Source of the DNA: Fibrobacter sp. UWH4
Lineage (GTDB): Bacteria; Fibrobacterota; Fibrobacteria; Fibrobacterales; Fibrobacteraceae
Length of the DNA stretch: 64,000 nucleotides
NCBI RefSeq assembly: GCF_900142475.1
Contig: NZ_FRAY01000002.1
Span: forward strand, 496,001 to 560,000
Direction of reading: 5' to 3'
The position numbers and the translations under genes are program-made. This document shows positions 1,852-39,556 of the stretch, piece after piece (within the stretch, counting starts at the first letter, position 1; the number at the start of each line of letters is the position of its first letter). The notes under the pieces were generated by a model. That model ran no database searches. It was not told the DNA's origin and saw nothing but the letters and a program-made list of their open reading frames with translations.

Positions 1852-1960
1852 TGAGATTTGAGCGCGGTCGCCTTCGGCTCCCTTTGAGGTTTGAGGTTTT
1901 AGTAGAAATTTAATTATTCTAGCAGAACCTCAAAAGTGCGTAGCACCGACCTCAGAGCTC
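1852..1960. repeat. Intergenic direct repeat, copy B (between tkt and nrdR)
   Basis: Second copy of the element at 1244-1350, same orientation. It carries GCGGTCGCCTT, GGCTCCCTTTGAGG, GGTTTTAGTAGAAA and CCTCAAAAGTGCGTAGCACC. Further CTCAAA and AAGGCGACCTC fragments continue to about 1988, so the whole gap between nrdR and tkt is repeat-derived. Confidence 0.75.
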
Positions 1961-5355: not shown

Positions 5356-5442
5356 TCGTCATTCTCGACCGAAGGGAGGGAATCCATCCAGTGCTGGATT
5401 CCGTCTCCCCTCCGCTACGCTTCGAGGATGACACGCTCCAGA
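5356..5442. repeat. REP-like palindromic intergenic element
   Basis: An imperfect palindrome. The outer arms are GTCATTCTCGA and TCGAGGATGAC; the inner arms are GGAATCCA and TGGATTCC. Related GTCAT...ATGAC elements lie at 18816, 20040, 39488, 43738, 45719 and 47717. It is followed at once by a seven-base tandem repeat. Confidence 0.6.
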
Positions 5443-5459
5443 ATGACACAGCGCGTCTG

Positions 5460-5494
5460 TTCTAAGTTCTAAGCTCTAAATTCTAAGTTCTAAG
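5460..5494. repeat. Heptamer tandem repeat, five units of TTCTAAG type
   Basis: Five consecutive 7-base units: TTCTAAG, TTCTAAG, CTCTAAA, TTCTAAG, TTCTAAG. The same period with a related consensus (NTCYGAA) recurs at 39527-39554 and 47764-47791, each time just after a palindromic GTCAT-type element. Confidence 0.85.
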
Positions 5495-5501: not shown

Positions 5502-5534
5502 AGCAGCAGGCTCCTGCTGCTTTATTTATATTTA
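5502..5534 (+). terminator. Stem-loop followed by T-rich tract
   Basis: AGCAGCAG, a GCTC loop and CTGCTGCT, then TTATTTATATTT. It could end transcription from the envelope gene at 4273, but it sits only 5 bases before the next ATG (5539) and could instead affect translation of that gene. Confidence 0.5.
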
Positions 5535-9028: not shown

Positions 9029-9095
9029 GCAGTGAACAACGAGCACGGGTCCAAAGGCCCTTTGAGCAATAATAAATGCGGCATGGCCGCCTAAC

Positions 9096-9166
9096 TTAAA
9101 CCTCAGAGCGAACGAACGTGAGCGAACTCAAACCTCAAAGCGAGCCACGCGAGCGAACTCAAAGCT
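9096..9166. repeat. CTCAAA/GCGAGC intergenic repeat tract upstream of gmk
   Basis: The tract contains CCTCAGAGCGAAC, GAGCGAACTCAAA, CCTCAAAGCGAGC and GCGAGCGAACTCAAAG, a reiterated module of CTCAAA plus GCGAGC or GAGCGAAC. It resembles fragments around nrdR and at 59605-59745. It is open in the gmk frame and could mislead start calling. Confidence 0.6.
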
Positions 9167-9171
9167 ACGAT

Positions 9172-19982: not shown

Positions 19983-20041
19983 GAGGGAATGGTGGTTGCT
20001 TTTGAACGATTCATTCTTGTCAAGGCAACCGCCTTATTTGT

Positions 20042-20070
20042 CATTCCCGACCTGTTCGGGAATGTTTTTT
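20042..20070 (+). terminator. Rho-independent terminator after gmd
   Basis: CATTCCCGA, loop CCTGT, TCGGGAATG, then six T. It is also a member of the GTCATTCCCG palindrome family seen at 45719-45812. It marks the left edge of the AT-rich cassette. Confidence 0.85.
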
Positions 20071-20168
20071 GTATATTCAACCGTTTGCAAAATAGTGAAG
20101 ATAGCCAACTGTTGGTGACAGAATATCGGGTGGCGGGATAAGCATATATTGAATGCTTAATATGAATT

Positions 20169-21698
20169 ATGGCTACAGAACACGAAAATAACAAGAGAAT
20201 TGCGAAAAATACATTGTTGCTTTATGTGCGCACAATGTTTGTGATGGCTGTATCTCTTTTTACTAGTAGGGTAGTTCTAAATGCTCTTGGTGTTGAAGAT
20301 TTCGGTATGTATAATGTTGTTGGTGGCTTTGTTGCGATGTTCTCTGTTATTTCAGGAGCCTTATCTTCCTCTATTAGTAGGTTTTTAACGTTTGAACTTG
20401 GTAAAGGAGGCGGTGAAAAACTTAATAGAATTTTTTCAACAAGCGTAAATATCCAAATAGTAATTGGAGCTGTTGTTTTTATATTAGGTGAAATTGCTGG
20501 ATTATGGTTCTTGAATTATAAAGCAAATATTCCTGATGGACGTCTTATTGCGGCCGTTTGGGTTTTGCAGTGTTCATTAATTGCTTTTGTTGTTAATCTT
20601 GTTAGTGTCCCTTATAATGCAGCGATTATTGCCCATGAAAAGATGAAAACTTTTGCTTACATTGGAGTTTTAGAAGCTGTATTGAAATTGCTTGTTGCTT
20701 ATTTTTTGTACATATCTTCATGGGATAAATTAGTTACGTATGCTGTTTTGCTTGTACTGATTTCGGTAATTATTCGATTGATTTATGGAATTTATTGTCA
20801 TCGGAATTTTTCAGAAACGAGATATAAGTTCTGCTATGACAAAGAGCTTGTGCATGAAATGACTGGTTTTGCGGGCTGGAGCTTTTTTACTAATTGCGCT
20901 TTTATATTTAATACTCAAGGAGTCAATATTCTTATAAATGTTTTCTTTGGGGTTGCTTCAAATGCTGCACGAGGTATTGCTGTTCAAATGGAAACCGCTA
21001 TAAAAAAATTTGTTTATGACTTTACAACAGCAATCAACCCCCAAATAACTAAGAATTATGCTGCGGGAAAGTTTGCTGAAATGAACAAGCTTATTTGTAG
21101 GGGCTCGAGGTTTTCGTATTTGCTTTTTTTGATTTTCGCGTTACCATTTATTTTTGAAACACCAACTGTTCTTAAACTTTGGTTAAATGTTGTTCCTGAA
21201 CATACTGTTGCGTTCTTTAGACTTACCATAATTTGCTCTATACTTGATGTATTGGGGAATACTGGTTATACAGCCTGCATGGCGACAGGAAAAATAAAAA
21301 AATATGTGTTGACAATTACATCTGTTGGCTGCTTGGTTTTTCCTCTTTCTTGGTTGGCTTATTATTTAGGTTTCCCAGTAGAATCTTGTTATGTTGTTTT
21401 TGCTTTGGTTTATTTTGTGGTTGATGTAGTTCGATTGTTTTTGATGAAGCAAATGCTTGATTTTCCTCCTTTTTTATATATTCGTGATGTTGTTTTTCGT
21501 ATTTTCTTGGTTACGTTATTCTCGTTGCCCATTCCGTTTTTTATAACTGAGCTCATGGAGCCATCCGTTTTACGTTTTTTTGTCAATACGATTATTTGTG
21601 TTTTAATAGCTAGTTTATCTTCGTTTTTCTTCGGTCTTTCAAAAAATGAGAAGTTAGCCGTTCAAAATGGAATCAGAGCGAGGTTCTTAAAAAAATGA
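20169..21698 (+). CDS. Wzx-type polysaccharide flippase
   Basis: A protein of 509 residues with about 12-14 hydrophobic segments, of the PST/MOP exporter superfamily. The start RIAKNTLLLYVRTMFVMAVS and the segment SRVVLNALGVEDFGMYNVVGG (quoted in part: VVLNALGVEDFGMYNVV) are characteristic of O-unit flippases in Bacteroidota-type loci. It would move lipid-linked repeat units across the inner membrane. It is the first gene of the AT-rich cassette; the 60-base line at 20401 has 19 G/C against 34 at 18601 in fcl. The stop overlaps the next gene by 4 bases. An AAGCAT-ATATTGA-ATGCTT inverted repeat lies 10 bases before the start. No Shine-Dalgarno is visible. Confidence 0.9.
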   Translation: MATEHENNKRIAKNTLLLYVRTMFVMAVSLFTSRVVLNALGVEDFGMYNVVGGFVAMFSVISGALSSSISRFLTFELGKGGGEKLNRIFSTSVNIQIVIGAVVFILGEIAGLWFLNYKANIPDGRLIAAVWVLQCSLIAFVVNLVSVPYNAAIIAHEKMKTFAYIGVLEAVLKLLVAYFLYISSWDKLVTYAVLLVLISVIIRLIYGIYCHRNFSETRYKFCYDKELVHEMTGFAGWSFFTNCAFIFNTQGVNILINVFFGVASNAARGIAVQMETAIKKFVYDFTTAINPQITKNYAAGKFAEMNKLICRGSRFSYLLFLIFALPFIFETPTVLKLWLNVVPEHTVAFFRLTIICSILDVLGNTGYTACMATGKIKKYVLTITSVGCLVFPLSWLAYYLGFPVESCYVVFALVYFVVDVVRLFLMKQMLDFPPFLYIRDVVFRIFLVTLFSLPIPFFITELMEPSVLRFFVNTIICVLIASLSSFFFGLSKNEKLAVQNGIRARFLKK

Positions 21699-22504
21699 GT
21701 TTTATAAAAAAAATCATTAAAAAGTTAACTACGCGAACAATAACGGTTTTAAAACCTATTGTTGTAACTGTACCTTCAAATGAACTGTTGAAAGGAAAAA
21801 CAGCCTTGATTACGGGGGGCGGGTGTGGAATTGGCTTTGCAATAGCTAAGGCTTTGAGTCTTGCTGGTGCAAATGTTTTTATCTGTGGGAGAAATGAAAA
21901 AAAACTTCAAGTAGCTGCTGAACAAATCCATTGTAAATATATTGTTTTGGACATTTGTGATGTTCAAAATGCTGAATGTATAATTGAAAAAATATTTTGC
22001 GAAACTCCGATAGATATTCTTGTAAATTCTGCCGGAATCCATGGTAATGATGCTTTTGGTCAGGTGTCAGAAGATACCTTCAACGCTGTTATGGATACAA
22101 ATGTGAAAGCCTTATATTTCATCTCTCAAAAGATTTCTAATTTGATGATAAAGTATGGTGTTAAGGGACATATTTTAAATGTTTGTTCTGCATCGGCATT
22201 AAAGCCATCTTGGACTCCATATGAGATTAGTAAGCGTGCTGTTCAAGGAATAACAGAGGGGTTCGCTCATAAACTGATAAAGCATGGTATTGTTGTGAAT
22301 GGGATTGCTCCTGGTCCTACGTTGACTCCTATGCTAAGAACAGAAAACAATCTAACTTGGCCTGCAAATCCCTCAGGGAGAATGTCTATGCCCGAAGAAA
22401 TTGCGTCTTTGGCTCTTTTTATGGTGGGGCCTCAAGGCGAAGGGATTGTTGGGGATACATTTTTTATAACAGGCGGCTCAGGAACAATTGACAAGGAAAA
22501 ATAG
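21695..22504 (+). CDS. Short-chain dehydrogenase/reductase (SDR), cassette copy 1
   Basis: A protein of 269 residues. After a basic amphipathic N-terminus (FIKKIIKKLTTR) a classical SDR domain begins near residue 35. It has the cofactor motif TGGGCGIGFAIA, NSAGIHG, the catalytic Ser in VCSASALKPSW, YEISK as the YxxxK pair, and GIVVNGIAPGPT. It overlaps the flippase stop by 4 bases and lies 6 bases ahead of the MenD-like gene, so the two are probably translated together. The product of 30583-31407 is a clear relative. Likely role: oxidation or reduction of a hydroxyl or keto group on a sugar or small precursor; substrate unknown. Confidence 0.9.
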   Translation: MSFIKKIIKKLTTRTITVLKPIVVTVPSNELLKGKTALITGGGCGIGFAIAKALSLAGANVFICGRNEKKLQVAAEQIHCKYIVLDICDVQNAECIIEKIFCETPIDILVNSAGIHGNDAFGQVSEDTFNAVMDTNVKALYFISQKISNLMIKYGVKGHILNVCSASALKPSWTPYEISKRAVQGITEGFAHKLIKHGIVVNGIAPGPTLTPMLRTENNLTWPANPSGRMSMPEEIASLALFMVGPQGEGIVGDTFFITGGSGTIDKEK

Positions 22505-22510
22505 CTTATT

Positions 22511-24253
22511 ATGTACACAATTCAAGAAAATGTTCGAATAGTCATTGCTCTTCTTAAACAATACAATATCAGGCATATTGTCGTTAGCCCTGGTGGTACC
22601 AACATTCCGATTTCTCAAGCTGTTCAAGACGATCCGTTCTTTATTTGCTATTCAATTCCTGATGAACGTAGTGCGATGTATTTTGCAATAGGTCTATATT
22701 TGCAAACAGGTGAGATAATAGCGACTTCTTGTACGAGTGCTCAGGCCACTCGTAATTATGTTCCCGGTTTGACGGAAGCTTTTTACAAGCACGTTCCGAT
22801 TCTTGCTATAACTACAGCCAAATTGGAACGTTTCCAATACCAAGATTATATGCAAGCTCCCGATCAGTGTTCCTTGCCTAAAGATTCTGTGAAGGCTTCT
22901 TTTGATTTGCCTCCAGTAACTGACGATAACACTCGGATACAGGTTTACCATAATGCAAAGGATGCTATTTTGGAAACAAAGCATAGAAGTGCGGGACCTG
23001 TTCAGCTTAATATCCGAATTATAGACGCATTACAAATTCAATTTGAAAATATTGAACTTCCCAAAATTCGTCCTTTGACTCGCTATATGGCATGGGATGA
23101 GTGGTCTGATGTCGATTTAGAAGGCAAAAAAATTCTCATAGTGGTCGGTGAACATCGACCATTTACTGATAGACAATTAAAAGCAATAGATTGCTTCTGT
23201 GAAAAATATAATGTGTGCGTTTATGTAAATCATTTGTCTAATTATCATGGAAAATATTCAGTTTCTGCCAATTTGATGGTTTCTTGTGGTGGCTTTAATC
23301 AGTTGAAACCAGATGTTCTTATCACAATTGGTGGTCAAACAGGAGATTACGCTATTTATGGAGCTCTTAACGGACTTGGAAAAGCGGAACACTGGAGAGT
23401 GTCAGAAGATGGTGCTTATGTAGATACATATTGTCATTTGACAAAAATATTCGAATGTCCTGATTATTTTTTCTTTGAACGATTTGTCAAAAAAGAGATT
23501 TCTGCACATCCTTATTTCCAGGAATGGAAGTCTCTTTGTGATTCAATAAACTATGATGTAGAACTGCCGTTTTCTAATTGCTATGTTGCACAGCAGCTTC
23601 ATTCTAAGATCCCTGCAAATAGTGTCATGAATTTTGCAATTCTTAATAGCTTGCGGTGTTGGAGTTATTTCCAATTGGATCCAAGTATTCAAGGGTATGC
23701 TAATGTGGCTGCGTTTGGTATAGACGGCTGCAATTCCATGCTTTTTGGTGAAAGCATGAAAACGGATGAGCTTTGCTTTATTGTTACGGGTGATTTAGCA
23801 TTTTTCTATGATATGAATGCTTTAGGGATTCGTCATCTTAAAAAGAATATACGTATCTTGCTTATTAATAATAATGGCGGTGCTGAATTTAAAATTATGA
23901 CTCGTAATTGGAAAAATGATGTTCGTGTTGATGATTTTATTTCTGCAAATGGTCATAATGGTAACGCTAAGGGATGGGCTGAAAATTGCGGTTTTAAATA
24001 TTTATCCGCTTCATCCAAAAACGAATTTGAAAACCAAAAAGATTTATTTGTCTCTTCTTGTAATCAACCGATTGTTTTGGAAGTGTTTACAAAAGAGGAT
24101 GATGAGGTTGTAGCTATGAAAAATCTTGTTGAATCAAATAGAATTCAGTCTGCACAGGATCATTTAAAGGGTATGGTTACTAATCTTGTTGGTGAAAAGG
24201 GTACAGCGTATTTGAAAAAATATTATGAAACGAATATAATAGGGATAGTATGA
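22511..24253 (+). CDS. MenD-like thiamine diphosphate enzyme in the polysaccharide cassette
   Basis: A protein of 580 residues with MenD-type organisation. Near the N-terminus it has IRHIVVSPGGTNIPIS (26-30 SPGGT), where MenD has SPGSR, and DERSAMYFAIG, which contains the catalytic-type Glu52. CTSAQATRNYVPGLTEA matches the MenD CTSGTAAANYYPA segment. The cofactor-binding end has TGDLAFFYDMNALG (about 424-437) and LINNNGG (about 451). MenD adds a succinyl-semialdehyde unit from 2-oxoglutarate to isochorismate. The altered SPGSR motif, the location and the lack of other men genes argue for a different carboligation or decarboxylation, perhaps making an unusual sugar substituent. It overlaps the next gene by 4 bases. 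Confidence 0.8.
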   Translation: MYTIQENVRIVIALLKQYNIRHIVVSPGGTNIPISQAVQDDPFFICYSIPDERSAMYFAIGLYLQTGEIIATSCTSAQATRNYVPGLTEAFYKHVPILAITTAKLERFQYQDYMQAPDQCSLPKDSVKASFDLPPVTDDNTRIQVYHNAKDAILETKHRSAGPVQLNIRIIDALQIQFENIELPKIRPLTRYMAWDEWSDVDLEGKKILIVVGEHRPFTDRQLKAIDCFCEKYNVCVYVNHLSNYHGKYSVSANLMVSCGGFNQLKPDVLITIGGQTGDYAIYGALNGLGKAEHWRVSEDGAYVDTYCHLTKIFECPDYFFFERFVKKEISAHPYFQEWKSLCDSINYDVELPFSNCYVAQQLHSKIPANSVMNFAILNSLRCWSYFQLDPSIQGYANVAAFGIDGCNSMLFGESMKTDELCFIVTGDLAFFYDMNALGIRHLKKNIRILLINNNGGAEFKIMTRNWKNDVRVDDFISANGHNGNAKGWAENCGFKYLSASSKNEFENQKDLFVSSCNQPIVLEVFTKEDDEVVAMKNLVESNRIQSAQDHLKGMVTNLVGEKGTAYLKKYYETNIIGIV

Positions 24254-25314
24254 AACGTATATTTTTTGATATCCTGCATTTGATAACTTATTTCTTTGGT
24301 GCTTTTTTTACATTCAAGAAGAAAGTGCTGTTGTTCTGTATTCCTGAGCATCCTAATTTGGGAGACCAGGCTCAGTTGATGTGTACTGAAAAATGGATTA
24401 AGAATAATTATGGTAATTACAAGTTGTTTGAATTCCCGTTGATTTGTCAGGTCTTTGCTAATGACAATAAATCCTTGTTGTTTAATTACACATTTTGGGT
24501 TTTTATTGTACTAAAATTAACTGTTCGTAAAAAAGACATATTTATTGGACATAGTGGATATTTCTTTACGGATCATCATGGGGGGTGGTTTTCCTTTGCT
24601 TTCTTGATGGAACATTGGAATAATCAATTTATAATACTTCCGCAAACAATTAATTTTTATGCTCCGTTTGTTAAACAGCTTGTTGCAAAGAAATTTGGGA
24701 ATCGAGAAAATCTCACAATTTTGTGTCGTGATGAAGTTTCTTATGAAAATGCAAAAAAGCTTTTTGGATCAACAAAATTATTGCTTTTCCCAGATATTGT
24801 AACTAGCTTGATTGGTGCGCGATCTTATAAAGCTGATCGAGACGGGGTGCTTTTTTGCATGCGTGATGATGTTGAAACTTTTTATTCTGCAAGTAGTATT
24901 GATGATTTGATGAATCGGTTTGGAAATGTTCGAAAAGAAAAGATTGACACGACGCTAAAGATTAGTAATGTTGAAATGCGAAAGCATCGTGACGAATTGA
25001 TAAATAAAACTATTGAAAAAATTTCAACCTATAAAGTTGTGATTACAGATCGTTATCATGGAACTATCTTTTCTGCGATTGCCAATACTCCTGTAATTGT
25101 TATTAATTCTGCTGATCATAAATTGAGTAGTGGCGTTAAATGGTTCCCAAAAGAATTTTTTGGTGAAAATGTCCAATATGCAGAAAATCTAGAGGATGCG
25201 TATGAAAATGCTTGTCGAATTTTGCAAGATTCGAGACAAGTAACTGCTAATCCGGCTTATTTTAAAGAAAAATATTGGGATTTTTTACAAGATGTAAGAA
25301 ATAGTGAAAAATGA
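24250..25314 (+). CDS. Polysaccharide pyruvyl transferase family protein, copy 1
   Basis: A protein of 354 residues of the CsaB/GumL/WcaK-like family, members of which transfer pyruvate from PEP to form ketals on glycans. Visible are IPEHPNLGDQAQL near the N-terminus (the family's N-x-GD motif), IILPQTINF, CRDEVSYENAKKLF, LLFPDIV, and ITDRYHGTIFSAIANTPVIV with the conserved RxHG-type motif. There is a hydrophobic N-terminal segment of about 20 residues. Start ATGA overlaps the MenD-like stop. Some family members are not pyruvyl transferases but other glycan modifiers, so the exact reaction is unproven. Confidence 0.85.
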   Translation: MKRIFFDILHLITYFFGAFFTFKKKVLLFCIPEHPNLGDQAQLMCTEKWIKNNYGNYKLFEFPLICQVFANDNKSLLFNYTFWVFIVLKLTVRKKDIFIGHSGYFFTDHHGGWFSFAFLMEHWNNQFIILPQTINFYAPFVKQLVAKKFGNRENLTILCRDEVSYENAKKLFGSTKLLLFPDIVTSLIGARSYKADRDGVLFCMRDDVETFYSASSIDDLMNRFGNVRKEKIDTTLKISNVEMRKHRDELINKTIEKISTYKVVITDRYHGTIFSAIANTPVIVINSADHKLSSGVKWFPKEFFGENVQYAENLEDAYENACRILQDSRQVTANPAYFKEKYWDFLQDVRNSEK

Positions 25315-25353
25315 CTATTTGAGTTATTTAATAATTCTAATAAATAAAATCAT

Positions 25354-25857
25354 ATGTTTTATACTTTTTTAGTAATAGTTGCACTTTTTTTTGCTTATAA
25401 AGCGGGTTGTTTTGAAACAGAAAATAACCATGATTTGTATTATAAACTAACTTTTTTTGTAATATTCTTCATTTATGGTTTTGAATTCTATAACACTGTT
25501 GACTATAGTGTTATGCTTAATAAGTTTAATTTGGTAAATCGCACAGATAAATCTATTTTTGAATTTGGTGAATCTGTAGAACCTTTTTGTGCATTTTTAT
25601 TAAAAATTTGTCAACCTATAGGTGGTATTGGGTACTATCTTGTGACTGCTGCTTTTGAAATTTTTGTAATGTATAAAATATGTAGGAAAAGTATTGACGA
25701 AAGGTTTCTTTGGCTGTTTACATTTATTTTGCTGATAAATTTTGATTATGTAATTGTTTTTATGACTGTAAAAAGACAATTTTTATCAGTGGCTTTTGTT
25801 ATGCTTGGTGTGTACTTGTCTTCATTAGAATCGTGTGAAAATAAAAGAATTTTTTAA
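25354..25857 (+). pseudogene. EpsG/Wzy-like polymerase, N-terminal half of a frameshifted gene
   Basis: 167 residues with about four hydrophobic segments, ending VMLGVYLSSLESCENKRIF. The EpsG family of putative polysaccharide polymerases has a conserved VKRQFLSVAFVML-type motif here (TVKRQFLSVAF) and continues through a segment with HKSA. That continuation lies in the next frame. A run of six T at 25850-25855 is the pivot: with five T the frame reads RIFKKSFYVFLCF without a break. Combined length would be about 391 residues, normal for the family. Confidence 0.7.
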
Positions 25858-26530
25858 GAAAAGTTTTTATGTTTTTCTATGTTTTGTTGCCGCGTTTATG
25901 ATCCATAAAGCTTCTGTCGGTGCTTTATTTTTGCTGCCTATAGTGTTTTTTAAGCAACCTCTTACGAAAAAGATATCTGCTTTTTTATTGTTTTTGTTTT
26001 TGCTTCAATATTTGGTGGATTTGTCAAAATATGCGGATTCCATTTTTTATTTTTTATCTGACAGGACAGACAAATTTGCTCATTATGCTCAACAGTTGGA
26101 AAGTGGAAGATCGAAAACATTTGTTTATGTTTTTTATGAAACTGTTGTTTTTTTAATTCTGCTTTATTATGGAAACAAAGAATCCGGTATAAGGCTTGTT
26201 TTGATAAAAGCGTCTTTGTTCTATTTTGTTATGGCGAATTATTTTCAAAAAGATGTCGGGCGAATTTTGTTGTATTATCATTATTGCACGATTTTCGCTA
26301 TTGTGATTTCTGTTGAAAATTTATTTGCTGAAGGAAAAGTTAGATTTGCAAAGATGTTTTTGATTATGGCTGTTTTAATTTCTTGTCGTCTTTATTATAA
26401 TGCATTTTTTGTAAGTGATAAGCATTCGATGTCTTATGGCTTTAAAAATTTTAAAACAATTATTGAAGCTCCTTCTTTATGGATTGAAAATCCAAATCAG
26501 TTATACAAAAAATATTTACCATACTATTGA
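25835..26530 (+). pseudogene. EpsG/Wzy-like polymerase, C-terminal half of a frameshifted gene
   Basis: 231 residues from a GTG at 25835 that overlaps the first half by 23 bases. It opens KEFFKKSFYVFLCFVAAFMIHKASVGALFLLP, whose IHKASV corresponds to the family's FHxSA motif (quoted in part: AAFMIHKASVGALF). At least five more hydrophobic segments follow. It could be made separately by translational coupling at the GTG, or joined to the first half by slippage on T6. Function as a polymerase is inferred from cassette context (flippase present, no other polymerase). Confidence 0.7.
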
Positions 26531-26539
26531 TAGAATATC

Positions 26540-27139
26540 ATGAAAATTCTTTGGTTTGCAAATACGCCTTGTGAGGCTGAAGAAAAGCTCACTGGAAAGC
26601 CTGTCACTGGTGGTGGGTGGTTGTACGCTCTTTCTCAAGAAATGAAAAAAGACCCTCAAGTGGAGCTGCATATAGCTTTTTACTGGGGGGTGCCGATGGA
26701 ACCTTTTTGCTATTCTGGCATATATTATTACCCTATATTGCGTTCTGGAAATTGCTCAAAAATTGGAAGGTATATCTATAGATTTAGATCCCAATTTTCA
26801 GATTGTTACGATGCCGTTGAAGTTCCTCGTTTGCTAGATGTCGTATCTCGTGTTAATCCTGATGTAATCCATATTCATGGATCTGAGGAAAATTTTGGGC
26901 TAATTGCGGAACATATTGATTCTCGAAAAATTTGTATGTCGGTACAAGGAATTTTGGGCCCTTATAAGAATAAATATTTTTCAGGGATTCCTAAAGAAGT
27001 TGTAGAAAAAAATTCTCCCTTTATAAAAAGGGTGTTGCTTGATGGCTCTATTGCTTCGTATCGCCGTTTCTGCAGAAAAACGTTAAGGAAAAAAAGAATT
27101 TATCGGAAAATAGATAATATTATTGGTCGTACGAAGTAG
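26540..27139 (+). pseudogene. GT4-like glycosyltransferase, N-terminal part ending at an internal amber codon
   Basis: 199 residues with the start of a GT-B fold: MKILWFANTPCEAEEKL, then KPVTGGGWLYALSQEM, PDVIHIHGSEENFG and SVQGILGPYKNKYF. It ends IIGRTK followed by TAG at 27137-27139. Without that stop the same frame reads IGRTK-x-DEMCSLALNPERKYY into the second part; relatives have a tryptophan (TGG) there, so a single G to A change explains it. The N-terminal half alone lacks the nucleotide-sugar site. Confidence 0.85.
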
Positions 27140-27145
27140 GATGAA

Positions 27146-27829
27146 ATGTGTTCTTTGGCATTGAATCCGGAAAGAAAATATTATACCTGTAATGAAATCC
27201 TTCGTAGCGATTTTTTCAAGAAAGAATGGGCTGTCCCATCAAATGAAAAATTCAAGATTGTTTCGACGATAAGTTTTGGCTTGTGGAAAGGGGTCGAAGT
27301 GATTTTCCAGGCCGCCAAAATTTTAGAAGAGGCGGAATTCAATTTTGAATGGAACGTTATTGGCATAACGGCTGATGACGAAAAAGCTTTGTATTCCGAA
27401 AAAATGACTTCTTTCAACAGAAATTCATCAAATGTTAAATTTTTAGGCCGTATGGACTCTTCTCGGCTGATTGATCAGATGATGTCATCGAATTTATTTG
27501 TTCAGGTGAGTAGAATTGAAAACAGTCCAAATACATTATGCGAGGCTATGTTACTTGGTATGCCCATAATTGCATCTTATGTTGGTGGTACTGCAAGTAT
27601 GATGAAAGATGGGGTTGATGGGTATATGTACCAGGAAGGAGAGCCGTATGTTCTTGCTGGACTTATAATGGATTGTGAAAAAAATTATGCTAAATATGTT
27701 GGTATGGGGAAAAATGCGAGAGTCCGTGCATCGCAAAGGCATAATCCCCAAAATGTCGCTCAAGAATTGAAACGTATCTATGAATCAATTTGTTTGTCGA
27801 ATGGTCACGTAAATGATACGAGGGTGTAA
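27146..27829 (+). pseudogene. GT4-like glycosyltransferase, C-terminal part after the amber codon
   Basis: 227 residues in the same frame as 26540-27139. It contains the donor-binding half: IVSTISFGLWKGVEVIF, VKFLGRMDSSRLIDQM, and the E-x7-E region SRIENSPNTLCEAMLLGMPIIAS (quoted in part: SPNTLCEAMLLGMPII). The ATG at 27146 has no Shine-Dalgarno, so translation on its own is doubtful. Full-length 26540-27829 would be 429 residues. An amber suppressor tRNA or readthrough would rescue it; none was seen here. Confidence 0.85.
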
Positions 27830-27830
27830 T

Positions 27831-28802
27831 ATGAAGACGAAAATAATGAAGCTGCTAAGCAATGTCTACAAAAAAGCTTTTAGAAAAAAATATGTTGGAC
27901 AGTCTTGGCCTAGCGAAAATGAAAGAGAAAATGCCAATCGAGCCATTTTTGATTTATTAAGTGCGGATAAGCCTTGCTTTATTGGTAGAATGGGAACGAC
28001 AGAAGGTGCCGTCATAAATAATTATATAACGGTTCATAGTGATGTAAGCTATTTCAAGAAATTGCTTAATTACATTACGGACAAAACAAGACTTCCTTGG
28101 TGGGATTTCCCTAGATTAGACAATGACTTGTGTCAATTTTCTGGATTCTTTCCCGGTGGTAATTTAAAAGAATTGGAAAAGTTTGCAGAATTGTATATGA
28201 AGTATATTCCGACAATGGACTTAGCAGGGCGCTTTTCTTATTATGAAAAATTTTTGCCGTTTAATTCCAAGTGTCAATTCTTTCAGTTGGAGGCCCTGTA
28301 TCCATTTTTTGTCGAGCATTCCTGGATGAAGGCCCTAGAAGGAAAAAAGGTTCTTGTTATTCACCCTTTTAAGGAAACCATTGAAAAACAGTATGAAAAA
28401 AGAGCCCATTTATTCCCTTCAAAGGACTGGCTCCCTGATTTTAAGCGCCTTACGGTTATAAAGGCCGTACAAACTTTAGCGGGCGAAAAATGTAAATTTG
28501 CCAACTGGTTCGAAGCTCTGGATTCGATGATCAAGCAAATTGACCAGGCGGATTTTGATGTGGCTCTTATTGGGTGTGGTGCCTATGGCTTACCTTTGGC
28601 TGCTCATTGCAAAGAAATCGGGAAAAAGGGATTTCATCTAGGGGGAGGATTACAGCTCTTGTTTGGAATTAAAGGAAAACGCTGGGAGTCCCAATACACG
28701 AACTCTTGCTACAGAGATTTGTTTAATGAGTATTGGGTGTATCCAGATGGATCTGAAAAAATAAAGAATGCGTCATCTGTTGAATCTGGTTGCTATTGGT
28801 AA
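27831..28802 (+). CDS. Cassette protein of unknown function, possibly a GT-D-like glycosyltransferase
   Basis: A protein of 323 residues. FIGRMGTTEGAVINNYI near residue 50 recalls the RxGxxE-type motif of GT-D-fold enzymes, and ADFDVALIGCGAYGLPLAAHCKE near residue 245 (quoted in part: VALIGCGAYGLPLAAH) resembles the C-terminal part of the same group. These resemblances are from memory of the family and are weak. No signal peptide or membrane segment. I chose the ATG at 27831: it stands one base after the previous stop and has GAGGGTG ahead. It lies between a broken GT4 and an acyltransferase, so a role in glycan assembly is likely. Confidence 0.6.
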   Translation: MKTKIMKLLSNVYKKAFRKKYVGQSWPSENERENANRAIFDLLSADKPCFIGRMGTTEGAVINNYITVHSDVSYFKKLLNYITDKTRLPWWDFPRLDNDLCQFSGFFPGGNLKELEKFAELYMKYIPTMDLAGRFSYYEKFLPFNSKCQFFQLEALYPFFVEHSWMKALEGKKVLVIHPFKETIEKQYEKRAHLFPSKDWLPDFKRLTVIKAVQTLAGEKCKFANWFEALDSMIKQIDQADFDVALIGCGAYGLPLAAHCKEIGKKGFHLGGGLQLLFGIKGKRWESQYTNSCYRDLFNEYWVYPDGSEKIKNASSVESGCYW

Positions 28803-28806
28803 TGTT

Positions 28807-29403
28807 ATGGTGCATAAATCGAATAGTCTAGCTCATTATTGCAATGTCGCTTGGAAAAGGTTTTCCAAATATTTTTGGCTGTTGCCGAATGTTTTGACCG
28901 CCTGGTGGTGGGGGGTCAATTTGGGCTCAAAGAACCGTTTTTATGGAAAGACAGTTTTCCGTACAGAACCCGATTCTATAATTTCTATAGGAAACAACTC
29001 TTGTTTCAATTCGTCTCATCGGTCAAATTTGATAGGTGTTTTTTCTCCGTGTATGATTTCCACAATAGCGCGCAGAGCCGAAATCCATATTGGTAACAAT
29101 TGCGGCTTTTCGGGAACCGTTATTGGTGCTGCGTTGTCTATAAAACTGGGCAATGGCGTACGTTGTGGAGCCAATACTATGATTACAGATAGCGATTGGC
29201 ATTCGGATGATCCCAGATCTGGGAAGGATGCTCCTGTTGTTATTGATGATAACGTTTGGCTTGGTTATGGAGTCAAGGTTTTGAAGGGTGTACACATTGG
29301 TGAAAATACTGTAATTGGTGCTGGGAGTGTCGTTACTCACGATATTCCTGCCAATGTTGTAGCGGCAGGAAATCCATGTAAAGTGATAAAGGGCTTGAAT
29401 TAG
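28807..29403 (+). CDS. Hexapeptide-repeat acyltransferase, cassette copy 1
   Basis: About 198 residues with a left-handed beta-helix: ISIGNNSCFNSS, AEIHIGNNCGFSG, IKLGNGVRCGANTMI, the catalytic-region HSDDPRSGKDAPVVI, DNVWLGYGVKVLKGVHIG, and the closing NVVAAGNPCKVI. Such enzymes acetylate sugar hydroxyls with acetyl-CoA. An in-frame ATG at 28768 overlaps the previous gene by 35 bases and would add 13 residues; neither start has a good ribosome site. The next gene starts 1 base after the stop. Confidence 0.88.
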   Translation: MVHKSNSLAHYCNVAWKRFSKYFWLLPNVLTAWWWGVNLGSKNRFYGKTVFRTEPDSIISIGNNSCFNSSHRSNLIGVFSPCMISTIARRAEIHIGNNCGFSGTVIGAALSIKLGNGVRCGANTMITDSDWHSDDPRSGKDAPVVIDDNVWLGYGVKVLKGVHIGENTVIGAGSVVTHDIPANVVAAGNPCKVIKGLN

Positions 29404-29404
29404 T

Positions 29405-30550
29405 ATGAACGTGATTCTTATGACTGGTGAGGGGTATCCGAAGCGATTTTCTGCCAATAATTCCAAGAGTGAATTTATTGCTCGTGGCTTAAAGGAATGT
29501 GGCTGCTCTGTGTCTATTATAGATGGTGCTTTTGGTGCTTATGATATCAGAGAGGAAATGTCAGGTATTTCCGAAAACGGAATAGACTACTGTATATTTC
29601 CGAGAACTAATCGCCTAAAAAGTTTCTTTGTGAACTTGCCCAAATTATGGAAAACCCTAAAGAATAAGAAGCGTAAAGGTGAGGTAAACCATATAATAAT
29701 CGGAATGGAAATGGTTCCTTTTATATATGTTTATTTTGCTATGGCTTGGTTGCAGGGGTATTCCAGAAGTTGCCTTTTTCATGAATGGCATGCCGGTTTA
29801 AGTCAAGGCTTTGTTTCGAAAATACGAGGATGCCTTTTAGATTATACTTTTGGTTATTTTGTAAATGCAATTTTCCCTATAGGTCATTTTCTAAGAGAAA
29901 AGTGTAATCGATTCCATAAGCCTAATATGTTGATTCCTATTTTGGCTGATTTTGATGTGAAGTATCAACGACAGAAAATTGCAAGCCATTTTACGTATTG
30001 TTGTGCTGGCGAGTATTTGCTGAGAAATACGTTGGTCTTGGATTCTTTTCGTGAGCTTCATAAACAGGAAAAATACCGAGATGTCCAATTAGTTCTTGTG
30101 ATTCAAGGAAATGATCGTGTTCTGAAAAAAACGCAAGAGCTGGTGCAGTCTTATGCTGATAATGAAAATATCATTGTCAAAAATAAAGTTCCGCGTCAAG
30201 AGTTGGACGAAATTTTTGCATCGTCAATAGGTTTGCTGATTCCTTTAGATCCAAATAGCCTTCAGGATAAGGCACGTTTTTCTCAAAAAATTGCGGAATA
30301 CGTTGCCACGCGTAGACCGATAATAACTAGCGCTGTTGGTGAAATTCCTTTTTATTTTAAGGACCGGGAGAGTGCTATTCTTGCTAAGTATGATGTTGCC
30401 GGATATTGTGAGGCGATGCGCTTTTTAGTTGATAACAGATCTAGAGCCGATGAAATTGGCGAAAATGGTTTTTCAGTTGGACAAAGTTCTTTTGATTATC
30501 GGGAATATGGTAAAAAAATTAAAGCGATTATAGAAAAGATTAATGAATGA
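29405..30550 (+). CDS. GT4-like glycosyltransferase, intact
   Basis: A protein of 381 residues with GT-B features. The N-terminal domain starts MNVILMTGEGYPKRFSANNS; the middle has FHEWHAGLSQGF. The donor domain has VIQGNDRVLKK, IIVKNKVPRQELDEIFASS and LIPLDPNSLQDKARFSQKIAEY (quoted in part: PLDPNSLQDKARFSQKI), then RPIITSAVGEIP. The typical E-x7-E is replaced by RFSQKIAEY, as in some GT4 members. The stop overlaps the upstream-most ATG of the next gene. Sugar unknown. Confidence 0.85.
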   Translation: MNVILMTGEGYPKRFSANNSKSEFIARGLKECGCSVSIIDGAFGAYDIREEMSGISENGIDYCIFPRTNRLKSFFVNLPKLWKTLKNKKRKGEVNHIIIGMEMVPFIYVYFAMAWLQGYSRSCLFHEWHAGLSQGFVSKIRGCLLDYTFGYFVNAIFPIGHFLREKCNRFHKPNMLIPILADFDVKYQRQKIASHFTYCCAGEYLLRNTLVLDSFRELHKQEKYRDVQLVLVIQGNDRVLKKTQELVQSYADNENIIVKNKVPRQELDEIFASSIGLLIPLDPNSLQDKARFSQKIAEYVATRRPIITSAVGEIPFYFKDRESAILAKYDVAGYCEAMRFLVDNRSRADEIGENGFSVGQSSFDYREYGKKIKAIIEKINE

Positions 30551-30582
30551 ACTTAAAAACATTAAATAAAAAAGGTATGGTT

Positions 30583-31407
30583 ATGATAAAGAAAATAATT
30601 TTAAAATTGGTTACTCTGTTTAAACATAAACGGTATATCCCAATAGTCTCGATTACTTCAAAAGAAAAAATGCTTGAAGGTAAAAAAGCTCTTGTTGTTG
30701 GAGGCTCTGGAGGTATTGGGAGTGCTATTGCTAAAAAATTGAAGGAATGTGGTTGCTATGTAATTATAACAGGTTCTAATGAATCAAAGCTAAAGAATGT
30801 TGCGAAGGATTGTAATGCAGACGGCTTTGTAACGCTGAATTTAAAGGATATCTCTAGTTTTGATGACAAAATAAATGAGGTTGAAAATAAATACGGGAAA
30901 ATAGATATCTTGGTGTGTAGTTCTGGTATTCATGTGAAAAGAAAAGGCTTTAATTACATGTCGGTAAGTACTGATGAATTCGATGACATTATGAATGTCA
31001 ATATGAGAGGCGTGTATTTTATATGCCAGAAAATTGCTAAGCGAATGGTGGAATTGAAAAAAAACGGGAATATTTTAATCATATCTTCTTCTCGTGGAGC
31101 GGAGCCGTCTTGGTCTCCTTATAGCTTGTCAAAACGTTGCTTGAATGGTTATATTGAGGGCTTGGCGAAGGAGCTTGTTCCTTATGGAATTGTTGTTAAT
31201 GGAATTGCACCTGGTCCTACGGCTACAACTATGCAAGATGAACTTGTGGGTGGCAGTATTTACACAAATCAGAATCCTTTAGAACGATTGACAATGCCTG
31301 AAGAAGTTGCCGAATATGCATGTATGCTGGTTAGCTCGCTTGGAAATACTGTTGCTGGACAAACTATATTTTTGTCTGGTGGCCGAGGAATATTCGATAT
31401 TAGATGA
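30583..31407 (+). CDS. Short-chain dehydrogenase/reductase (SDR), cassette copy 2
   Basis: A protein of about 274 residues related to the SDR at 21695. It shares the basic N-terminus (MIKKIILKLVTLFKHKR), then VGGSGGIGSAIA, CSSGIHV, the Ser in IISSSRGAEPSW, YSLSK as YxxxK, GIVVNGIAPGPTAT and MPEEVAEYA. The first Thr of the usual TGxxxGIG motif is Val. I chose the ATG at 30583 because AAAGGT stands 6 bases ahead and the N-terminus then matches copy 1; ATGs at 30547 (overlapping the previous stop) and 30577 are alternatives. The two copies may act on successive intermediates. Confidence 0.88.
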   Translation: MIKKIILKLVTLFKHKRYIPIVSITSKEKMLEGKKALVVGGSGGIGSAIAKKLKECGCYVIITGSNESKLKNVAKDCNADGFVTLNLKDISSFDDKINEVENKYGKIDILVCSSGIHVKRKGFNYMSVSTDEFDDIMNVNMRGVYFICQKIAKRMVELKKNGNILIISSSRGAEPSWSPYSLSKRCLNGYIEGLAKELVPYGIVVNGIAPGPTATTMQDELVGGSIYTNQNPLERLTMPEEVAEYACMLVSSLGNTVAGQTIFLSGGRGIFDIR

Positions 31408-31415
31408 GGTCCAAA

Positions 31416-32405
31416 ATGAAAAAGGTTTCAATTGTTGTTCCGCTGTATAAGTCAGAACCGTTTATGAATAAGCTGGTTGATTCTGTATTGAATCAAACAT
31501 ATCAGAATATAGAGCTTATTCTTGTCGACGACGAATCTCCTGATAGATGTGGCGAAATTGCTGATGAATACGCCAAAAAAGATAACAGGGTCGTTGTTAT
31601 TCACAAGAAAAATGGAGGCTGTTGCGATGCTCGAAATGCTGGGCTGAAGGCTGTTTCCGGTGAGTACTTGATGCTTGCAGATGGCGACGACTGGATGGAA
31701 TCTGACTGTGTAGAGTATCTTGTAAATATAATGGAAACGAACAATTGCCAAATGTCTATGTCAGATTGCGTGTTCTCGACTAGAGATCGAAAGCAAAATG
31801 AAACTGACTTTGTGCGTGTCTGGTCAAAAGAGCGTGCGGCTTGTGGAATCTTGTATATAGATACTCCTATTGGACCTTGGAATAAGGTTTATACAACTAA
31901 GGTTATTCGGGATAATAATCTTTCATTCTCTGTTCCGTGGTTTGGCGAAGGTTTGTACTTCTCTGTTATGGCTGCTCAACTATCTAATCAGGTTGCGGTA
32001 GGGCATAGAAAGGTATATAACTATAGGTTGAATAATCCAAATAGTGGTACGACTGTACGCCAAGTTGAAAATGCTTTGAGTGCACAATGGAATATTAATA
32101 ACATAAAGAATAATTTGATTGTACGTACGCCCAAGACTGTAAATGCCTGCAATTGGCACATTTATAATAATTATTTTATGGTTGTTATGTACATTGTGGG
32201 GGCGTCAGCATATTCCCTGTATCACGAACAGTATAAAAATGCGAAAAAAGGTATTCGCAAAAATGCTTTAAACGTTCTAATTCATTCTACAGTGTCGCTT
32301 AAGGAAAAAATCAGAATAATTGCATACGCCATATCTCCTTACGCTATGGCTAAGTTTATATTGTGGTGGAAAAAAAGGCAGCTTAAGGCAGATTTGATGG
32401 AGTAA
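31416..32405 (+). CDS. GT2 glycosyltransferase
   Basis: A protein of 329 residues. The GT-A N-terminal half is canonical: VSIVVPLYKSEPFMNKLVDS (quoted in part: VSIVVPLYKSE), SVLNQTYQNIELILVDDESPD, GCCDARNAGL, and the metal-binding ADGDDWM. The C-terminal part has IGPWNKVYTTKV and FGEGLYF. I chose the ATG at 31416 because GAGGT lies 5 bases ahead; an ATG at 31404 overlaps the SDR stop. There is a hydrophobic stretch near residues 255-270. It would add one sugar to the repeat unit on the cytoplasmic side. Confidence 0.92.
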   Translation: MKKVSIVVPLYKSEPFMNKLVDSVLNQTYQNIELILVDDESPDRCGEIADEYAKKDNRVVVIHKKNGGCCDARNAGLKAVSGEYLMLADGDDWMESDCVEYLVNIMETNNCQMSMSDCVFSTRDRKQNETDFVRVWSKERAACGILYIDTPIGPWNKVYTTKVIRDNNLSFSVPWFGEGLYFSVMAAQLSNQVAVGHRKVYNYRLNNPNSGTTVRQVENALSAQWNINNIKNNLIVRTPKTVNACNWHIYNNYFMVVMYIVGASAYSLYHEQYKNAKKGIRKNALNVLIHSTVSLKEKIRIIAYAISPYAMAKFILWWKKRQLKADLME

Positions 32406-32408
32406 TGA

Positions 32409-33662
32409 ATGAAAATAGTGATTGCAGAAGGTGGCCCTGCTGGAAATGTGGGGTCTATGGCATTGATAGAAAATGCTATAAAAATTGCTAGAGAAAAACA
32501 TCCGGGGTGCGAAATTATTGTATTGTCTTCGGTCCCGGATTCTGTAGATGATGCTTTGACAAAAGAAGGCCTACACTCTAATGTTGTTGTTATGGGAGAT
32601 CTCTTTATTGTTCCCCTTGCTGGTACTTTTGTTAAATTGGCTTGGTTGGTCCAATGTATTTTATGGATTGTGTATACTCGTTTTTTGCTGTTGTTCTCGA
32701 ATAAAATTTCTTGTTTGTTACTTGGTAGAAGAAAGAAAATTCTCAAAGAAGTTGAATCAGCGGACTTTGTTTATTGTATAGGTGCTGAACGAATTAACGA
32801 TATATATTTTAAAACGGCATTGTTGTCTCTTAGTGAACTCGGAATTTTCATAAAGATGGGCAAGAAACTGGTTCACTTGTCGTTGACTATTGGGCCTGTT
32901 TTTTATAGAAGTACGATATGTGCAGCTAAACGGATTTTGAATGCTAGTTATGCTATATTCGTTCGGGATCAAAAAACTTTTGATATTTTAAAGGAATGGC
33001 ATTGCAAGGCTCCGCATATATTTAATTCTTTTGATATTGCGCTATTGCAGGATTCTGCATCGGAAAAAACACAACAGTTATTAAATGAGTTTGGAATTGA
33101 ATCGGGATTTATTGCTGTTTCTGTAATTGATTGGTTGTTCCGGAAAGCTAAGGGCCCTGCAAGGATGCCTGAATACAATGAAGCACATGCGAAGGTTCTT
33201 GATTACATTGTTGAAAAGTATGACAAAAATATTTTGTTTACGCCTACGGTGGTCTCTAATTGCTACAAGGTTAGCGATACAACTGCGGCAGATTCTGTTA
33301 TTTCGTTAATGAAACACAAAGATAGAGTTGTTTCAATCCAACGTTTGTTAACTCCTATGGAGCTGGCTGCAATATACAGTCAATGTTATTTTGGCATAGT
33401 CACTCGAATGCATGCGGCTATTCTTTGCTCTGGTGCCGGTGGAAAACCTATTGTTGCTGTCAATTATTTGTATAAATTACGAGAATATATGAAGAATATT
33501 CAATTTGAGGACTATTCTGTAGATATTGATTATGTGAATGAGTGCGCTTTGAAGGATTTTGTAGATCAGATGTTTTTGAATTATGACGTTAATTTGGAAC
33601 GGTTGAACAAACGTATTTCAAGTATGCGGAGTGATTTAATGGCTCATTTAATGTCCGTTTAA
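32409..33662 (+). CDS. Polysaccharide pyruvyl transferase family protein, copy 2
   Basis: A protein of 417 residues. MKIVIAEGGPAGNVGSMALIENAI holds a GN-x-G-type start (quoted in part: GGPAGNVGSMALI). YCIGAERINDIYF, SLTIGPVFY, FVRDQKTFDILKEW, and the C-terminal YFGIVTRMHAAILCSGAGGKPIVAV (quoted in part: VTRMHAAILCSGAGG) follow the WcaK/CsaB pattern. A hydrophobic segment lies near residues 75-105. It is distant from the copy at 24250. The cassette therefore could add two pyruvyl groups or two related modifications. Three bases separate it from the GT2 stop. Confidence 0.85.
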   Translation: MKIVIAEGGPAGNVGSMALIENAIKIAREKHPGCEIIVLSSVPDSVDDALTKEGLHSNVVVMGDLFIVPLAGTFVKLAWLVQCILWIVYTRFLLLFSNKISCLLLGRRKKILKEVESADFVYCIGAERINDIYFKTALLSLSELGIFIKMGKKLVHLSLTIGPVFYRSTICAAKRILNASYAIFVRDQKTFDILKEWHCKAPHIFNSFDIALLQDSASEKTQQLLNEFGIESGFIAVSVIDWLFRKAKGPARMPEYNEAHAKVLDYIVEKYDKNILFTPTVVSNCYKVSDTTAADSVISLMKHKDRVVSIQRLLTPMELAAIYSQCYFGIVTRMHAAILCSGAGGKPIVAVNYLYKLREYMKNIQFEDYSVDIDYVNECALKDFVDQMFLNYDVNLERLNKRISSMRSDLMAHLMSV

Positions 33663-33728
33663 AATATGTGTGAATGGATGATGTGATTTTTGGGGAATGT
33701 TTGTTAGATTGAAATTTTTGGAGAAAAC

Positions 33729-34355
33729 ATGATAAACTTTTGTATAAAAATAAGTAAATCAATTCCATATGTTCTGGATAAATTTATTACTGTGTTATAC
33801 AAAAAGAGTATGAAATATTGCGGAAAAAATGTGTATCTCCGACCAATGTTTTCTGATTTTAAGGGGTTGGAAAATTTATCTATTGGAGATGACGCAATTA
33901 TTCCTAAAGGAAGTACTTTTTATTGTACGGGCGCTCCATTGACCATAGGAAGAAAAGTAATCTTTGGCCCTCATCCAACTATAATAACAGGCGATCACCG
34001 CATTGATTTGATTGGAAAATATATAGCTGATGTATCTGACGAAGACAAACTGAATGGTTCAAATGTAAGTCCTTATGATGCTCCTGTTGTAATTGAAGAT
34101 GATGTCTGGTGCGGAGCTAATGTAACTATATTAAAAGGTGTGACTATAGGAAGGGGATGTGTGGCAGCTGCGGGTGCTGTTGTGACGAAATCTTGCCCTC
34201 CATACAGTATTGTTGGTGGCGTTCCTGCAAAAGTGCTTAAATTTAGATTTTCAGTTGATCAAATTATTGAGCATGAAAAAAATCTCTATCCTGAAAGTGA
34301 ACGCTATACGAGAAAACAATTAGAAGAAATTCGTGAGAATTATCCTGGTAAGTAA
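33729..34355 (+). CDS. Hexapeptide-repeat acyltransferase, cassette copy 2
   Basis: A protein of 208 residues of the CatB/maltose-acetyltransferase-like group. The beta-helix shows LSIGDDAIIPKGS, LTIGRKVIFGPHPTII, the active-site histidine segment GDHRIDLIGKY, APVVIEDDVWCGANVTILKG, VTIGRGCVAAAGAVVTK, and the closing YSIVGGVPAKVLKFRF. The C-terminus is a charged helix. The stop is directly followed by the next ATG (34356). A GGAGAA site precedes the start. Likely O-acetylation of the repeat unit. Confidence 0.9.
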   Translation: MINFCIKISKSIPYVLDKFITVLYKKSMKYCGKNVYLRPMFSDFKGLENLSIGDDAIIPKGSTFYCTGAPLTIGRKVIFGPHPTIITGDHRIDLIGKYIADVSDEDKLNGSNVSPYDAPVVIEDDVWCGANVTILKGVTIGRGCVAAAGAVVTKSCPPYSIVGGVPAKVLKFRFSVDQIIEHEKNLYPESERYTRKQLEEIRENYPGK

Positions 34356-35441
34356 ATGACTAACGTTATTATTACAGCGCCTTCGTTGGATCCGACGCAA
34401 AATGTGAGTGGCATCTCTAGCGTTGTCAATTTTATCATTGACAATAATCCGGAAGTGAATTACCTTCATTTTGAACTTGGCAAAAAAGACAAAGAAAAGG
34501 GGGGCTTGCATAGGGTAACCCGAATTATAAAATCTTATGTAAAATGGCGCGAATTTGTTGATGAAAATTCAGACGCGATTATTCACTATTCGTTTCCTTT
34601 GTCGGGTTTCTCAATTATAAGGGATTTTCCTTTTTTGTCTTATTGTATAAAGAAGAATAGAAAACTCGTTATCCATGTTCATGGAGGCTTGTTTTTAACG
34701 GCTCCAAAGATTCCGTACTATTTGAAGCTTATTTTAAAGAAGGTTTTCTCTTGGAATGTTCCTTTTATAGTTTTGAGTAATTCAGAAGTCCAAATTTTGA
34801 AGAATCGCTTTGCTGCCAAGAATGTGCATTCTTTGCCTAACTGCGTGGATTTGAAAGATGCCGAAGAATATGCGAGTGCAAAAAAAAATAATTCTTGTAA
34901 CAAACCTCTAGTTATAGGTTATCTTGGTCGAATTGAACCGAATAAGGGTATGACGGAATTGCTTAGTGCTTGCGAAGTCTTGAAAAAAGAGGGGGTTCCC
35001 TTTAAACTAACCATCGCTGGAAAAGAACAGATGAATGGAGAATTTCTTCCTCGTTTTGATAGGCTACTGGAGGATGATTTCCATTATGCAGGATTAGTCT
35101 ATGGAAAAACAAAATGTGATTTTCTCAGAAGTCTTGACGTGTTTGTCCTGCCTTCGTATTTTGAAGGTTTGCCTATGTCTCTTCTCGAATGTATGAGTTA
35201 TGGAGTTGTTCCTGTTGTTACTCCAGTTGGTTCAATTCCAGAGGTTGTTGAAAATGGAGAGAATGGGATCTTTATAAGTGTCAAAGATTCTGATAGTATT
35301 GTTAAAGGAATTAGGAATCTGCATGATAATCGAAATATGGTCAAAAGACTTGGCGAAAAAGCTCGTAATACAATTTTTAAAAGATTCTCGCCTCAAGCAT
35401 ATGTGAAAAAATTAAATGAAATTTATGCGGAGGTCCGTTGA
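34356..35441 (+). CDS. GT4 glycosyltransferase, last intact gene of the AT-rich cassette
   Basis: A protein of 361 residues, GT-B fold. The N-terminal half has ITAPSLDPTQNVSGISSVV and LVIHVHGGLF. The donor half has the classical IGYLGRIEPNKGMTELL, FHYAGLVYGKTKCDFLRS and the E-x7-E motif in PSYFEGLPMSLLECMSYGVV, then TPVGSIPEVVENGENGI. It directly follows the acyltransferase and carries the low-GC signature. Just past its end base composition returns to host level, and a remnant of another glycosyltransferase overlaps its stop. Confidence 0.93.
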   Translation: MTNVIITAPSLDPTQNVSGISSVVNFIIDNNPEVNYLHFELGKKDKEKGGLHRVTRIIKSYVKWREFVDENSDAIIHYSFPLSGFSIIRDFPFLSYCIKKNRKLVIHVHGGLFLTAPKIPYYLKLILKKVFSWNVPFIVLSNSEVQILKNRFAAKNVHSLPNCVDLKDAEEYASAKKNNSCNKPLVIGYLGRIEPNKGMTELLSACEVLKKEGVPFKLTIAGKEQMNGEFLPRFDRLLEDDFHYAGLVYGKTKCDFLRSLDVFVLPSYFEGLPMSLLECMSYGVVPVVTPVGSIPEVVENGENGIFISVKDSDSIVKGIRNLHDNRNMVKRLGEKARNTIFKRFSPQAYVKKLNEIYAEVR

Positions 35442-39453: not shown

Positions 39454-39487
39454 AATCTTGTCTCTTGTTTCAGTAGTTTTATAACAA

Positions 39488-39554
39488 ATGGATTGCCGCG
39501 CTTCGCTCGCAATGACATACTATTAATTCTGAATTCCGAAATCCGAACTCCGAA
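39488..39554. repeat. Composite intergenic element: GCAATGAC palindrome plus four NTCYGAA heptamers
   Basis: ATGGATTGCCGCGCTTCG runs into CTCGCAATGAC (the ends GATTGC and GCAATG mirror each other). From 39527 there are four 7-base units: TTCTGAA, TTCCGAA, ATCCGAA and CTCCGAA. The tract ends 2 bases before the wbaP stop codon. Confidence 0.8.
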
Positions 39555-39556
39555 TT

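Follow-up and report, generated by a model that had tools for sequence, protein, structure and literature searches.

Heptamer arrays in Fibrobacter as probable arms of small intergenic cassettes

Based on the comparison of intergenic sequences within the genome of Fibrobacter sp. UWH4 and between this genome and its congeners, we consider that the tandem heptamer tracts of this bacterium are probably, though by no means surely, the arms of non-autonomous, MITE/REP-like intergenic cassettes that have been spread by a putative trans-acting activity, with slippage tuning the arms. Comparison indicated dispersal, exchange between species and changes in steps of 7 bp, and the dispersal of the cassettes is well supported at this level. 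The over-representation of heptamers in bacterial genomes has long been noted, and has been put down to polymerase slippage or, where the words are G-rich, to quadruplex formation. In Fibrobacter the word varies from one cassette to another, whereas the length, the orientation rule and often a hairpin are constant, and this suggests a type of small, spreading DNA element that has so far gone unrecognised.

Results

Heptamer arrays in the window and in the genome

The window, a stretch of 64,000 nucleotides, corresponds to positions 496001-560000 of contig 2 of a genome of 3.70 Mb in 22 contigs. The homoserine dehydrogenase encoded in it has identities of up to 98% to F. succinogenes and other Fibrobacter records. 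Arrays were counted in an 864 kb sample of this genome, consisting of contig 1:1-400 kb, contig 3:1-360 kb, contig 4:200-240 kb and the window, in which genes were called with a home-made hexamer gene caller and 468 gaps of at least 25 bp were considered. Arrays below two units were left out of the counts. The word list was taken from the same data, and the tests of polarity, four-unit preference and independence were otherwise unaffected by word choice beyond detection. The features of the window were as follows.

1883-1896, minus strand: F6 array, two units of TTTGAGG, in a -- gap
5358-5432: GTCAT...ATGAC palindrome outside the heptamer cassettes, from a separate dispersed REP-like family
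5460-5494, plus strand: heptamer array NTCTAAR (F3), five units of TTCTAAG, on the start-codon side of a ++ gap
9029-9171: cassette with a core variant and CTCAAAC/CTCAAAG (F6) arms; core at 9072-9090, minus strand, GCGGCCATGCCGCATTTAT
39454-39556: whole insert between the glycosyltransferase gene and nadC
39490-39516: half-site of the separate GTCAT/ATGAC-type repeats, ending in ATGAC
39527-39554, plus strand: heptamer array NTCYGAA (F1), exactly four units, 2 nt from the minus-strand glycosyltransferase stop (39557)
47717-47754: half-site of the separate GTCAT/ATGAC family, ending in ATGAC, with CGCTCAGGATGAC at 47741-47753
47764-47791, plus strand: heptamer array NTCYGAA (F1), four units of which the final two are degenerate, 0 nt from the minus-strand sprA-like stop (47792)

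The first-pass annotation of this DNA had placed heptamer tracts at 5460, 39527 and 47764, two of them within 0-2 bases of a minus-strand stop codon; all three were present as placed, with repeats above chance in comparison to reversed controls, and the two distances were confirmed. A degenerate copy that it had proposed at 43738-43845 contained no heptamer array by any detector used. Rfam gave no matches in the window.

Period 7 was exclusive in the sample, with 66 arrays against none for periods 4, 5, 8, 11 and 13. As in heptameric long simple sequence repeats such as STRR, TAACTGA and GGGAATC, the tandem 7-nt units were mainly intergenic: 68 arrays of at least three units lay in gaps and 4 in genes, and reversed words gave 2. 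Extrapolation from the sample gives about 300 such arrays for the whole genome, in which TTCTAAGTTCTAAG with at most one mismatch had 76 copies compared to 1 for its reversed control. Not every gap is a target, because the gap between hom and the glycosyltransferase gene, a promoter-like spacer, was essentially array-free. No arrays were seen in loci of the F. intestinalis clade or of Fibrimonadales.

At least ten heptamer words were found. Those of the own genome include NTCYGAA, YCACTAA, NTCTAAG, ACATTNC, YCTACTN, CCTCANA and TCGTCTN, and congeners have, among others, TAACTAG, TCATAAT, CCCCTAA, ACCTANA and TCAATTG. The commonest family, NTCYGAA, had exactly four units in 29 of 42 arrays, and its edges were sharp (word match 0.93-1.0 inside in comparison to 0.24-0.49 outside). 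Four units was also the mode when all words were pooled, with 40 arrays at four and 6 at five; slippage alone would not give this mode together with such edges. Among indels of at least 4 nt, multiples of 7 made up 17 of 34 inside arrays and 21 of 113 in the remaining sequence of these gaps (p=6e-4), and by this comparison arrays change preferentially in steps of multiples of 7. The idea of a stop-codon cassette, in which a 7-nt word gives stops in all frames, was dropped, as TTCCGAA and other words are stop-free on both strands.

Polarity at gene edges

Going outward from a gene, one meets the G-richer word first, at starts and stops alike (84:13, p=1e-13). The left edge of a gap accordingly had the G-richer word on the plus strand and the right edge the C-richer word, a rule that the array at 5460-5494 obeys with its C-richer strand toward the right gene. 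Counted per gap the polarity was 66 to 9, and it was valid for ++, --, +- and -+ gaps. The corresponding count in other species was 80 to 24, which includes orthologues, so that its p-value is too small. A general strand skew was ruled out as the source, since array-free gaps were weakly skewed with the opposite sign.

Inverted arms and a conserved hairpin core

Neighbouring arrays of the same word were inverted, with 12 in the order '-+' and none in the order '+-', and the left and right arm of one cassette had the same word (0/20000 permutations). Terminal inverted repeats, a trait of MITEs, are present here in the form of these same-word arms, though length and word vary. Single arms with a decayed partner numbered 12 of 46, with 1.5 expected.

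A subset of the cassettes has a conserved hairpin core, GGCGGC-NNN-GCCGCGATTAT or TTAGGCGGC-NNN-GCCGCGATTATAAAA. With one mismatch allowed it was found in 65 of 80 congeners, in up to 45 copies, and the reversed control gave 0. The exact core is common in the genus, and outside it was present in 2 of 88 other genomes of the phylum with one copy each; by this search the core is genus-restricted. The own genome has about 12 copies (at most one mismatch) in comparison to roughly 300 arrays, and most cassettes are therefore core-less. When we searched by core alone, a period-7 arm was found beside 63 of 73 cores (0.75% in shuffles), a pooled count that is weakened by some orthologous pairs between genomes and a few cores in genes. 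The same core had different flanking words in the own genome, of the NTCYGAA, YCACTAA, YCTACTN and CCTCAAA types. For the YCACTAA and YCTACTN families the arms were directional relative to the core (AGTAAAC 15:1, AGTAGGA 8:30), and unlinked cassettes of one genome had a common order of units (LCS 19.5 in comparison to 11.8, 0/200 shuffles), a single-genome test that the orthologous pairs do not weaken. The directional arms and the common unit order indicate that whole cassettes were copied, which is supported also by the occurrence of the same words at dozens of unlinked loci.

At a site common to two genomes (L236, G013:C9, about 285-460, and L237, G012:C195) the core with one heptamer arm was present in three tandem copies with a 65-bp period, resembling BIMEs. 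Upstream of a gene whose product starts with MATIKT (L172, L183, L185, L197, L209) cored cassettes were found of which the words and core orientations differ among congeners, and this site is a possible insertion hot spot.

The glycosyltransferase|nadC junction across species

We compared 78 orthologous loci, and 57 species were scored at the junction between the glycosyltransferase gene and nadC. Where the window has the insert at 39454-39556, many species, L078 for example, have just a TAATG stop/start overlap; L078 also lacks an insert at the sprA-like gene junction that has the 47764-47791 array in the window. The glycosyltransferase|nadC junction had no insert, only TAATG or at most about 10 bp, in 23 of the 57 species, distant ones included. 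In the other 34 the insert measured about 40-170 bp; almost all of these inserts contained heptamers, and at least ten word types were represented. On a tree of hom and the glycosyltransferase gene at least 30 state changes were needed at this junction, 11 of them for presence or absence, the tree being a quick one of two genes and the word states being set by simple motif counts.

The sister species L106 and L108 had unrelated cassettes, though their flanks were 90-95% identical near the junction. Conversely, the cassettes of L106 and L091 were 90% identical with flanks at 82-84%, and those of L089 and L094 were 99% identical with flanks at about 92%. As cassette likeness can exceed flank likeness between species, cassettes appear to have been exchanged in very short tracts. 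Most congeners are MAGs, and chimeric contigs among them could produce an apparent exchange, although the result was the same in many independent assemblies; part of the exchange signal may come from such chimerism or from ordinary recombination of short tracts. Neither a fixed terminal sequence nor a consistent target duplication was seen at the nadC junction, where the nearest species are too diverged.

Local expansion or host function

In the slippage idea of Mrazek et al., as it is cited in PMC4679880, long simple sequence repeats grow locally through a polymerase that slips with a preferred step, here of 7 nt. The exclusive period of 7 and the indels in multiples of 7 are what such local expansion would give. 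It does not explain why the same word is found at many unlinked loci with a common unit order, nor the inverted same-word pairs, the polarity rule, the fixed four units with sharp edges and the inserts in otherwise bare junctions, and as the whole account of the arrays we regard it as unlikely.

A functional host element is a slightly poorer candidate still. In that case selection would have kept transcribed hairpins or protein-binding arrays at gene edges for the insulation of neighbouring genes, the stability of mRNA ends or the control of translation. The core-bearing cassettes do fold strongly (median z -3.2, 70% below -2), the arrays lie close to gene edges, at a median of 5 nt from stops and 20 nt from starts, and divergent gaps are poorer in arrays (10%) than the others (14-21%). 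Against this, presence, absence and word vary between close species at the same junction, the words have no common motif that one protein could read, and starts do not differ from stops in the polarity rule. There was no T tract 3' of the core either, where GATTATAAAA was found instead. The suggestion of an mRNA 3'-end element, made in the first-pass annotation, finds no support as a general explanation: with 45 start-edge and 52 stop-edge arrays both edges were used nearly alike, the polarity was symmetric to transcription, and neither a T run nor a restriction to positions after stops, the marks of intrinsic terminators, was seen. Directly after the 5460 array, at 5502-5529, there is an intrinsic-terminator-like hairpin, AGCAGCAG-GCTC-CTGCTGCT, followed by a T-rich tail.

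Search for a mobiliser and the GTCAT/ATGAC palindrome

It had also been proposed that a GTCAT/ATGAC palindrome and the heptamers, in fixed order, make up one composite element, possibly of a RAYT-type REP system. A true palindrome was found at 5358-5432, and the sites at 39490-39516 and 47717-47754 are only half-sites that end in ATGAC. The composite did not hold up, as palindromes and heptamers occurred independently over the 468 gaps: heptamers were present in 2 of 13 gaps with the full palindrome and in 73 of 455 without it (OR 0.95, p=1), and for the half-site the numbers were 7 of 54 and 68 of 414 (OR 0.76, p=0.69), with the same outcome within the 60-350 bp class of gap length. Because of this independence we exclude the palindrome from the heptamer element; it is the outcome that the first-pass annotation had itself named as refuting the composite. 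What survives of the proposed single mobile family is the dispersed heptameric family, which is probably mobile. The palindrome family is itself numerous, CGCTCAGGATGAC having 59 copies genome-wide compared to 2 in the control, and some of its copies have CGTCAT, reminiscent of CGTC-tagged REPs.

A Y1 transposase (PF01797) was absent from the own genome by a profile that was positive in control genomes. It was present in 27 of 80 congeners with no correlation with core copy number (p=0.30), and 5 congeners with at least 20 cores lack the gene. Reverse transcriptase was likewise absent from the own genome and uncorrelated with core number in the genus. No related autonomous element was found in the 80 genomes searched for these two enzyme families. 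Close pairs of cores had only housekeeping genes between them, which ruled out a transposase there. In G071 (L238, G071:C12) a half cassette that has a truncated core and a word of the ACCTANA type is separated by about 170-200 bp from an IS200-type Y1 transposase gene. This gene, the one examined closely among the congeners, was rejected as a driver: it looks like an ordinary IS200 TnpA, and its closeness to one half cassette is an isolated coincidence.

A RAYT-driven REP/REPIN system would account for elements that are small, palindromic, intergenic and present in many copies, and for the BIME-like tandem cores. With no Y1 gene in the own genome or in those five core-rich congeners, and with a GTCAT palindrome independent of the heptamers, we consider it very improbable; for the own genome it would survive only if the driver had been lost.

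Discussion

The cassettes that we favour would be about 50-170 bp long and would lie between two gene edges. Next to each edge would stand an arm of approximately four heptamers, in the G-richer orientation in the first arm and inverted in the second, with a loop or a hairpin core between the arms and with the heptamer word defining the cassette family. A putative enzyme acting in trans would copy or exchange them, most likely recognising the folded inverted arms or the core as a single strand or cruciform. Inserted cassettes would persist only between genes, and replication slippage may later add or remove units, with one arm often decaying.

The closest known arrays are the GGGAATC and GGGGA(C/T)T heptamer repeats of Xanthomonas and Nostoc (Rehm et al. 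2015, PMC4692102). Their G-richer strand is sense just after stops and antisense just before starts, a four-unit preference is tied to quadruplexes, fewer repeats lie between divergent genes, and inverted pairs occur in Xanthomonas; two Xanthomonas were mostly occupied at the same sites and no link to mobile elements was reported (PMC4692102). The Fibrobacter arrays are similar in their period of 7, intergenic position, four-unit preference, strand rule at gene edges, inverted pairs and scarcity between divergent genes. They differ in having many words, mostly without G-tracts, and a conserved hairpin core, and in that inserts were seen against bare junctions and words were replaced between species at the same site. 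That the four units give the four G-tracts of a quadruplex, as proposed for the GGGNATC repeats, would fit the polarity, the four-unit preference and the shortage in divergent gaps, but GGG is absent from the main words (TTCRGAA, CTTAGAA, GNAATGT, TTAGTGG) and the four-unit mode is strongest in the TTCRGAA/TTCYGAA family, which lacks a G-tract, so that quadruplexes are not the general reason for the rules and, as an explanation here, are the least credible we considered.

The TAACTGA direct repeats of Beggiatoaceae, Cyanobacteria and Bacteroidetes (MacGregor 2015, PMC4679880) are similar in that they are heptamer arrays between genes, with two to six units, a patchy phylogeny and no known mobiliser. 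They have one word, are direct in all but one of 170 sets, lie mostly just upstream of starts and are core-less. With REP, REPIN and MITE sequences (PMC3733652, PMC3116915) the cassettes have in common that they are small, dispersed, intergenic, hairpin-forming and non-autonomous. In contrast to these, the own genome is without RAYT, the arms are periodic heptamers of variable word, and no fixed ends or target duplication were seen at the nadC junction. By definition a REP is a palindrome of 20-40 bp of which one end has the tetranucleotide GTAG (or CGTC) (PMC3733652), and the core has no consistent tag of this kind, the column counts 5' of it giving a weak TTAG-like foot.

The length and strand rules of G-rich heptamers hold in Fibrobacter for words without G-tracts. 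Cyanobacterial STRR heptamers and small dispersed repeats are a further similar case: Elhai and co-workers (2008) reportedly described several heptamer words per genome, with tiny palindromic mobile repeats near or within them. To our knowledge inverted four-unit arms around a common core, and word replacement, have not been described for the STRR.

Since the rules hold without G-tracts, inserts were seen against bare junctions, cassettes were exchanged between species and one core has different words, a common generating process across phyla can be argued, and it is testable in the culturable rumen bacterium Fibrobacter succinogenes. As a tentative extension, which we hold with clearly less confidence than the cassette reading itself, the period-7, four-unit, gene-edge-polar arrays of Fibrobacter, Xanthomonas and Nostoc might form one class of minimal mobile elements. 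Such a class would be defined by its geometry (4 x 7 inverted arms) and not by its sequence, and a putative structure-reading machinery would copy its members while allowing their word to drift or switch. Intergenic comparisons in Fibrobacter are strongly affected by the inserted cassettes.

Elsewhere in the window, a region of polysaccharide-type genes at about 20000-35000 scored low with the coding model built for this genome and is probably of foreign origin.
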